20,835 nt of DNA from a virus. Below the pieces are notes generated by a model. That model saw only the letters and a program-made list of their open reading frames with translations. It searched no databases and was not told the origin of the DNA. The stretch is from positions 1 through 20,835 of IMG/VR virus record IMGVR_UViG_3300048536_000809, one strand, 5' to 3'. Both the position numbers and the translations under genes were made by a program. Below, piece after piece: positions 12,845-16,371 of this stretch (positions within the stretch are counted from its first letter, which is position 1; each line of letters opens with the position of its first letter).

Positions 12845-13333
12845 TTACCTCGATGTTAATAATTTAATTATTAACTTGTTTTTTTCTTCTATATCACTTA
12901 TTGTATAATCAATATTAATTTCAAAATATTCTGGATTATCAAAAGTCTCAGGTATTTTAACTGAAGAGTAGTTATTTAAAGAAACAAATGGCATAAAAAT
13001 AGATACTGCAGTTTGTATCTCAGACATCACTATGTCTTCTATGTCTCCTAGTTCAGAACTGTTATACATGTCTATTAAGTTTGTTCCAAAATCAGGTAAA
13101 CAAAGGTATTCACCTTTTCTAGTTAAAACTAAATTTTTAAGATTACTTTTTACTTGGTCCGAAATTTCATAAGTCATTTCAAATAAAGTCTCTTTACTGT
13201 TCTTGGGAGGAGAAATAGGTAACTTTATTCCTATTGGATTTTTATTTGATTCAAGTATTTTATTTTTATACTTTTCTTTTTTGATATAATCTTTTCTAAG
13301 TTTACCTGTGTTTTTAAACTTTGAATTTAGCAT
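12845..13333 (-). CDS. Baseplate wedge protein, gp25-like
   Basis: 162 codons from ATG 13333, with AGGAAA eight bases upstream. Residues 62-120 follow the gp25/TssE family pattern: helix VKSNLKNLVLTRKGEYLCLP, then DFGTNLIDM, then helix DIVMSEIQTAVSIFMPFVSL. This family joins the sheath to the baseplate by binding the gp6-gp7 core bundle. The N-terminal 45 residues are a basic, Pro-containing extension beyond the usual 130-residue family length. The family's EPR signature is changed here: the aligned stretch reads MPFVSL at 114-119, keeping the proline but not the acidic and basic residues. The next gene downstream is its expected partner, the gp6/J-like protein. The family assignment rests mainly on the T-x-x-G-E-x-x-x-x-P-D-F-G core and on context. 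Confidence 0.85.
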   Translation of the reverse strand: MLNSKFKNTGKLRKDYIKKEKYKNKILESNKNPIGIKLPISPPKNSKETLFEMTYEISDQVKSNLKNLVLTRKGEYLCLPDFGTNLIDMYNSSELGDIEDIVMSEIQTAVSIFMPFVSLNNYSSVKIPETFDNPEYFEINIDYTISDIEEKNKLIIKLLTSR

Positions 13334-13389
13334 TTAAAAATTTCCTAGATTTATAATTAACAAAGATAATTATATAAACTTAAAATAAG
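13334..13389 (-). promoter_or_regulatory. Possible internal promoter in the longest gap of the leftward operon
   Basis: The leftward genes are otherwise separated by 25 bases or less, so this 56-base gap stands out. On the minus strand it holds TATAAT (13369-13374) without a convincing -35 element. It also holds TATAAATC (13348-13355), one base away from the T4 late promoter consensus TATAAATA. The second site is only about 14 bases from the gp25-like start codon, which leaves very little leader. In sequence this AT-rich both matches may be chance. Confidence 0.18.
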
Positions 13390-15276: not shown

Positions 15277-15657
15277 TTACCCATTAATCTTATTAAAGAT
15301 ATCGTCTTCTGAAATCTCAGAAGATTTTTCTTCTTCTTTAGCAATAAGTTCAGCAAGTTTTAATATTTGATCATTTGATTTACTCATTCTCTCAATATAT
15401 TTTGACATAATTGCACCAATGTTCATATGTTCATTAATACCTGCACCTGTCATAGAAATATATGCGTCATTAAAAAGCATTTTTGACTTTTCTCTGTCTT
15501 CAACTGAATTTTCATATATTTCTTTCCAGAGCATTTTCTTTTTATCTTCTAAAGAATCAATATTTTCCAAAATATCAGAAAAGTTTTTTATCTGTTCTTC
15601 TTTTTTTTCAACTACATCCAGTTTTTTAGAAATGGATTCAATGTTTTGTGTCTTCAT
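15277..15657 (-). CDS. Small helical protein, possible terminase small subunit (gp16-like)
   Basis: 126 codons from ATG 15657. AAGGATAA, 11 bases upstream, overlaps the stop region of the sigma gene. The protein is almost wholly helical: a charged coiled-coil N-terminus (residues 5-50), a central helix with EDREKSKMLFNDAYISMTGA (53-72), and a helix IGAIMSKYIERMSKSNDQIL (80-99) followed by KLAELIAKEEE. This layout, and particularly the MxxMxxxNxxILKL ending, resembles the small terminase gp16 of T4-like phages. In that protein a central coiled-coil hairpin ends with a TNREILKL-type stretch. Small terminases form rings that regulate the large-subunit nuclease/ATPase during packaging. The similarity is short and helical, so a scaffolding or tail-assembly chaperone role is also possible. 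No large-terminase gene is in the window to support the call. Confidence 0.42.
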   Translation of the reverse strand: MKTQNIESISKKLDVVEKKEEQIKNFSDILENIDSLEDKKKMLWKEIYENSVEDREKSKMLFNDAYISMTGAGINEHMNIGAIMSKYIERMSKSNDQILKLAELIAKEEEKSSEISEDDIFNKING

Positions 15658-15666
15658 AAATTATCC

Positions 15667-16371
15667 TTAGAATATATCGAACATCTTATCAGGTCCAGCT
15701 ATTTTTTTATAATGTTTTCTTATCGTTGACAAAGAAGAACTAAGCTCAGAACTATTAAGTCCTGATATTTCCCTTAAATAAACAAATATAGCTCTTTTAT
15801 TTAAGTAATCTAGATTGTCAACATTAGTAAATATCTGTTGAATAGCTTTTATACAACGTTTATCTCTACCATCTTTTAATTGATTTTCTATATAAATTAA
15901 CATTTCATCTATTACATTAGGAATATTATTTTTTCTCTCTTTTTCATCAGGAGATAATTCTATTCTACTTTCAGACAATTTTGATTTGTCTCTAAACGAC
16001 ATACTTTCTGGTGCATTTAAAGAAACACTTCTATTAGCATTCTTTGCTAATCGTCTTGAGTTAATAGTTAACCAATTTTTTGCAACAACATTAAAATAAG
16101 AAAAAGCTTTAGTACCATTATCTGGATTCCATTTATGAAGTGTTTCAAATAAAAAAGTCGAGCAATCATTTTTTAAGTGACTTATATCTTCTATAGTTGC
16201 TTTAAATTTATAGACAGATACAAGACTATGTACTAATTCATTAAAAGCAGGCATTATATGTTCTTCGTATAATGAATCTTTTTCTTTTTTACAATCAGAT
16301 TTTTGATATAAAACTATTTTTTCTTGTGTTTCTAGAGTAAAATATTGTTTTCTTTTTCTTTTTTTTGTCAC
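15667..16371 (-). CDS. Phage RNA polymerase sigma factor, gp55-like (late transcription)
   Basis: 234 codons from GTG 16371, whose GTGA overlaps the upstream stop by four bases; AAGGA lies six bases before it. The N-terminus is strongly basic (KKRKRKQ). Residues 40-110 match sigma region 2: HSLVSVYKFKATIEDISHLK, NDCSTFLFETLHKWNP, then GTKAFSYFNVVAKNWLTINS at 86-105. That is the core-polymerase-binding and -10-recognition part. Residues 195-222 (LREISGLNSSELSSSLSTIR) read as a helix-turn-helix, which could stand in for region 4. T4 gp55, a minimal sigma factor for late TATAAATA promoters, lacks an obvious region 4. The protein ends PDKMFDIF, which resembles the hydrophobic sliding-clamp-binding tail of T4-family DNA polymerases. 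Late transcription of the structural operon is the likely role; dependence on the clamp is inference. Confidence 0.7.
   Translation of the reverse strand: MTKKRKRKQYFTLETQEKIVLYQKSDCKKEKDSLYEEHIMPAFNELVHSLVSVYKFKATIEDISHLKNDCSTFLFETLHKWNPDNGTKAFSYFNVVAKNWLTINSRRLAKNANRSVSLNAPESMSFRDKSKLSESRIELSPDEKERKNNIPNVIDEMLIYIENQLKDGRDKRCIKAIQQIFTNVDNLDYLNKRAIFVYLREISGLNSSELSSSLSTIRKHYKKIAGPDKMFDIF

Follow-up and report, generated by a model that had tools for sequence, protein, structure and literature searches.

A virus record of 20,835 bases, which is a fragment of a genome and is called the window below, carries the gene of a gp55-type late sigma factor that ends in a short hydrophobic and acidic peptide resembling the clamp-binding tails of phage T4. 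The coding sequence lies on the minus strand (16371..15667), starts with GTG, and specifies a protein of 234 aa whose translation closes with RKHYKKIAGPDKMFDIF; the C-terminal sequence KIAGPDKMFDIF is followed by a TAA stop codon at 15667-15669. The terminal peptide PDKMFDIF (15670..15693, minus strand), with the conserved core FDIF at 15670-15681, reads as the first-pass annotation had reported. The protein belongs to a large group of marine phages with a two-domain late sigma factor and an F-D-L-F-type tail. The observation is well founded and extends further than had been recognized. The interpretation given to it is right in kind, in that the protein is a late sigma factor with a clamp-type tail, while the literal partner named then, a clamp of the phage itself, is unsupported.

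The conservation of the tail was examined in two sets of relatives. The first search included the tail itself among its patterns and is therefore biased; the 9 loci it yielded end in PDKMFDIF, PGKKFDIF, PDMMFDWF, PDKMFDWF, TKEEFDLFF or PDKMFDIFG. The second search was run with two internal patterns alone, KAFSYFN and VVAKNWL, which introduce no bias toward the C-terminus, and showed that there are at least 559 relatives in IMG/VR. The 80 loci kept among the matches listed have tails such as FDLF, FNLF, FELF, VDLF, VDLL, YDIF and YGLF after a variable linker. When the 60 non-redundant relatives among the matches listed were aligned, the column information was 1.05-2.08 bits at residues 227-230 compared with 2.70-3.02 bits at residues 231-234, where the consensus is F-D-L-F. 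A loose form of the tail, [FVYILW][DNESGQ][LIFWMV][FLYW]x0-4$, is found in 50 of the 60 relatives and in 30 of 958 phage ORF C-termini. After reduction to 31 representatives with <70% identity, the strict form h-[DN]-h-[FL] still makes up the exact last four residues in 14 of them; over 2000 runs with shuffled tails, the average was 0.125 and no run exceeded 2. The first-pass annotation had regarded a terminal hydrophobic/Asp motif shared by homologs as support for its idea and unrelated ends as evidence against it. Most relatives keep the motif; 10 of the 60 deviate from the tail form (KKFSLKEKDLL and KTFDLSKRIN are examples), and the sigma C-termini of a distant immuto-like clade and of Microcystis phage Mel-JY01 are unrelated to it. 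As judged from the alignments, the tail is a conservation island behind a variable linker, that is, a real linear motif of the lineage, and is not universal across the wider sigma family. The same sigma factor also occurs on metagenome-assembled contigs binned as Halobacteriovorax and Methylococcaceae (L199 and L201; three genome_contigs matches). These contigs may be mis-binned phage, and no host is claimed from them; the searches turned up no isolate belonging to the lineage.

The assignment of the protein as a gp55-type late sigma factor, already made in the first-pass annotation, is supported by profile matches in relatives and by fold comparison. The PHROG_234 profile (late sigma transcription factor) matches 25 of the 60 relatives, the best at 5.9e-7, and its positions 20-165 of 181 align to residues 25-180 of the protein from a large relative (G016; L095); it does not match the sigma protein of the window itself. 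PF04542 (Sigma70 region 2) gives weak matches in 8 of the 60, with a best E of 0.0094. The AF2 model, with a mean pLDDT of 86, consists of a sigma2-like block that ends at residue 114, a stretch of lower certainty, a helical block at 141-224, and the tail. The region-2-like domain, to which PF04542 and PHROG_234 also point, is predicted at residues 28-114 (16030..16290, minus strand) with helices at 28-54, 63-76, and 89-114, and the C-terminal domain at residues 141-224 (15700..15951, minus strand) with helices at 141-164, 168-182, 192-203, and 207-224. The last two of these helices form a helix-turn-helix-like pair (residues 192-224; 15700..15798, minus strand) with the strongly conserved pattern Y.REISGL...LS.SLS.IRKHY, and they agree with the helix-turn-helix that had been predicted at 195-222 as a feature absent from gp55. 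Foldseek searches against the PDB returned top matches that are nearly all sigma factors, two-domain sigmas among them, with almost full-length alignments and weak E-values. Against viral models, the best E was 2.7e-4 with a probability of 1.00, and the named top matches were mostly phage sigma factors. Sequence homology of the helix-turn-helix domain to sigma region 4 was considered and dropped, as neither PF04545 nor PF08281 matched and PDB sequence searches found none; because sequence comparison does not detect region 4, the term "sigma4-like" for the second helical block is taken from the fold search and describes a predicted resemblance. A pairwise hhalign comparison of the sigma family with T4 gp55 alone was not significant. 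In members of the gp55 family, the N-terminal segment is conserved and has aromatic residues at two positions (10 and 23 in T4). In the present family, F11 is invariant and Y10 and Y22 are nearly so, in register with gp55 in that non-significant alignment. The gp55 family is further characterized by a sigma2 part only, with no sigma4/-35 module, and the window protein is a variant rather than a standard gp55 because it has the extra helical domain with the helix-turn-helix-like pair.

A candidate for the late promoter of these phages was found upstream of the gene for a gp25-like baseplate wedge protein (12845..13333, minus strand; PF04965 1.5e-6, phrog_261 1.7e-6), which was used as the late gene for promoter finding. 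In the window, the putative -10 element ATAATTA (consensus ATANTTA) is situated at 13367..13373 on the minus strand, 40 nt ahead of gp25. The 60 nt upstream of gp25 contain ATANTTA in 65 of 66 distinct loci, compared with 22 loci for the reverse complement and a mean of 10.1 (maximum 20) for shuffles. In the 22 G+C-richer loci, the forward element is found in 22/22 and the reverse in 0/22. Genes of the structural region follow the same pattern, with 16 forward and 2 reverse occurrences upstream of 55 genes in G016 and 13 and 0 upstream of 56 genes in another relative, G017. No -35 hexamer upstream of gp25 is conserved across the 66 loci. This -10-only arrangement contrasts with that of the early-type promoters of a third relative, G010, which have a -35-like AGTGTAA: strong bipartite promoters of the form AGTGTAA-N~17-TATAATA stand before short ORFs, probably early genes, in its 88-121 kb region (for example, at contig positions 90260 and 96387). 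T4-like late sigma factors read a -10-only late element, and we infer that ATANTTA is read by the sigma family of the window. In some, mostly related, loci, such as L097, L110, L112, and L099, ATANTTA is preceded at a distance of about 11-15 nt by a T-rich AATTT/TATTT signal, with which the extra sigma domain may make contact; it is not claimed as a -35 element. A further relative, G002, encodes an additional phage sigma factor at 25962-26711 on the minus strand (L019:5962-6711), in which regions 1.2, 2, and 3 are present; its homolog in G016 (L169:4883-5641) has a region 4 match that covers the first half only.

Which clamp the tail might meet was judged from the relatives, the window itself being only 20.8 kb long. 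G002, whose sigma factor is 88% identical to that of the window, has 239,550 bases with identical 141-base ends, so that its genome is probably closed and 239,409 bp long. G002 and the 211-281 kb contigs G010, G016, and G017 all encode a DnaE-type bacterial polymerase, and no gp45-like clamp, DnaN domain or clamp-loader ATPase was detectable in these four. The searches for clamps used PF02916, PF02768, PF00712, and a 9-sequence gp45 profile, and PF00705 on the window alone. As positive controls, the gp45-profile and loader searches detected T4 and Mel-JY01, and the DnaN searches detected bacterial control genomes. The gp45 profile reaches divergent clamps, such as those of Mel-JY01 (4.5e-11) and LR756508 (7.8e-5), the former of which is missed by PF02916 alone. 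Three PF00712 matches with E of 0.003-0.005 lie inside long ORFs, fall short of the family cut-off, and were regarded as chance matches. The T4-type combination of a phage gp45 clamp with a gp44/62 loader is thus not seen in these four relatives and others, and PolB was found in none of the related records searched for it. The phage DnaE was also inspected for a clamp motif of its own: the candidates SVFDI (before an OB-like domain) and INAFD (at the C-terminus) in G002-like DnaE are not conserved in G016 and G017, and no beta-binding motif is conserved in the phage DnaE of the relatives. In G002, the DnaE gene (46232-51081, minus strand; in L020) is interrupted by intein/HNH-like sequence, and the ribonucleotide reductase gene (67387-70418) appears to be intein-split. 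As for the proposal that the phage couples late transcription to its own replication clamp, what is supported is a late sigma factor with a conserved clamp-type tail; a clamp gene of the phage is not, since profile searches of the relatives, G002 and the long contigs included, found no phage-encoded gp45 or DnaN clamp and no loader. The first-pass annotation had listed a genome without a sliding clamp gene among the results that would refute it, and the relatives give that result for the literal claim. This absence leaves room for either the host beta clamp or an unrecognized phage clamp.

We tentatively favor a mechanism, plausible if short of probable, in which the late sigma factor, with its sigma2-like and sigma4/helix-turn-helix-like domains, docks by its tail on the host beta clamp. 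The sigma2-like domain would read the -10-only promoter ATANTTA, and the C-terminal domain would probably sit on the beta-flap of RNA polymerase over the upstream DNA. The flexible h-[D/N]-h-[F/L] tail, starting about 6 residues past the last helix, would dock in the peptide-binding pocket of a sliding clamp that tracks along DNA. That clamp would most probably be the host beta clamp that remains on phage DNA after replication, because the phages encode a bacterial-type DnaE and no recognizable clamp or clamp loader; on these genomic grounds the host beta clamp seems the most likely partner of the tail. The clamp would tether the late holoenzyme, stand in for the -35 contact, and link late transcription to replication. 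Several points argue against docking on the host clamp: Gln occupies position 1 of the tail in only 2 of the 60 relatives, 10 of them have no tail of this form, no beta motif was recognized in the phage DnaE, and the distant relatives, including the clamp-encoding Mel-JY01, lack the tail. A rival is the same tether on a clamp of the phage itself, the T4 arrangement of the first-pass annotation, with a clamp so divergent that the profiles used would overlook it. In its favor, the tails, with no Gln and an h-D-h-h core, are at least as close to gp45-binding tails as to beta motifs, several conserved ORFs of unknown function are left in the relatives, and a very divergent phage clamp could be missed. 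Even so, such a clamp seems quite improbable, as the gp45 profile that finds the Mel-JY01 and LR756508 clamps finds none in the large DnaE-encoding relatives, one of them closed, the clamp-loader family is absent although T4 and Mel-JY01 score, and no PolB was found in the related records searched for it. That the tail is a structural end cap or a part of the helix-turn-helix domain with no partner at all is also very doubtful. The AF2 model gives its last residues a mean pLDDT of about 79 and isolated bridge residues at 225 and 231, so that some packing of the tail against the rest of the protein is possible, but a variable linker precedes the core, extra residues sometimes follow it, and its acidic and aromatic residues are arranged as in a linear motif.

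A more serious rival arises from the adjacent gene. A small-terminase-like helical protein of 126 aa is encoded 9 bp downstream of sigma (15277..15657, minus strand), and its C-terminal DDIFNKI (15286..15306, minus strand) is a second conserved D-[IL]-F tail, of the form [DE]D[IL]F..I, in which F121 and I124 are invariant in 56 sequences. Of 78 gene families that four or more of five large relatives have in common as conserved families, sigma and this neighbor are the sole two in which every genome has [DEN][LIMVWF][FLW] among the last 14 residues. All loci examined have the two genes side by side, and both tails are missing together in the immuto-like clade. These findings speak for a reading in which the sigma tail docks on some other partner, such as host RNA polymerase, a phage coactivator or the packaging machinery, and the neighbor shares that partner, for example the large terminase. 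Since gp55 of T4 interacts with the terminase gp17 (PMC9026906), a shared partner or a link to packaging has to be taken seriously, even if we consider it possible rather than likely. The neighbor tail DDIFxKI, however, has nothing hydrophobic just ahead of its acidic residue, so the motifs may differ, and the identity of the neighbor as a small terminase is drawn from weak scores: its top Foldseek matches include 44RR gp16 (3txq/3txs) with E of 0.78-1.4, hhalign to the gp16 family gave p 0.026, and a search with the gp16 HMM did not match it. The shared D-[IL]-F ends prompted us to consider gp33 as the identity of the neighbor; nothing was found in support, and the fold search weakly favors gp16. 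An identity as UvsY was not supported either. Another possibility, fairly unlikely in our estimate, is that the single-chain late sigma factor couples to the host beta clamp and the adjacent packaging protein uses its similar tail on the same clamp, which would place replication, late transcription, and packaging on one shared host platform.

The architecture of the protein bears on a question raised in a review of T4 late transcription, which asked why no fused late-transcription sigma exists and reported that none had been found (PMC2988020). The sigma family of the window is a candidate for such a natural fused late sigma factor, and with at least 559 members in IMG/VR it opens the question to direct test. 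Should the tail prove to bind the host beta clamp, viral gene expression would be tied to replication without a clamp of the phage's own, a coupling of which no other case was found in the literature searched.

Among the closest known systems is that of T4, where a late sigma factor with a clamp-type tail is a familiar kind of protein. The T4 tails read SLDFLFG in gp43, SLDFLYEAND in gp55, and TNTLDFLL in gp33, and the h-D-h-h core is common to all of them and to the sigma tail. Clamp tails of T4 are interchangeable (PMC2988020), and they are tethered by 3 residues in gp33 and by a 21-residue linker in gp55, so that the tether of about 6 residues in the window sigma factor is nearer to that of gp33 (PMC7892883). 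Like gp55, it has a sigma2-like domain, a hydrophobic/acidic h-D-h-h tail, and a -10-only element by a late gene. It differs from gp55 in its length (234 against 185 aa), in having a helix-turn-helix-like domain where gp55 has a disordered linker, in a tail linker of about 6 rather than about 17-21 residues, and in that its relatives have no detected gp45, gp44/62 or PolB. With gp33 it shares a module that follows the sigma2 part and a clamp-type tail on a short tether, but here the module is in the same chain as sigma and the second domain is helix-turn-helix-like. The sigma-like proteins of Flavobacterium phage immuto and of Mel-JY01 are 24-29% identical over about residues 3-202 and have a related downstream neighbor gene, but lack the F-D-L-F tail. 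PolB, a clamp loader, and a gp45-like clamp are all encoded by Mel-JY01, and a query with it found no relatives in viral_contigs. Outside the T4 tails, the beta-clamp motif Q-L-x-L-F, which is often C-terminal (PMC4549789), occurs in bacterial proteins and transposases. The sigma tail agrees with it in being short and C-terminal with L-F at positions 4-5, and differs in having no conserved Gln at position 1 and mostly Phe or Val, not Leu, at position 2. A parallel in design is provided by the functional artificial gp55-gp33 fusions described in the same review of T4 late transcription, which likewise combine sigma2, an upstream RNA polymerase-binding module, and a clamp tail in one chain (PMC2988020). 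In contrast to these constructs, the window sigma factor is natural, has a single C-terminal tail, and carries a second domain that is sigma4-like in its predicted fold.
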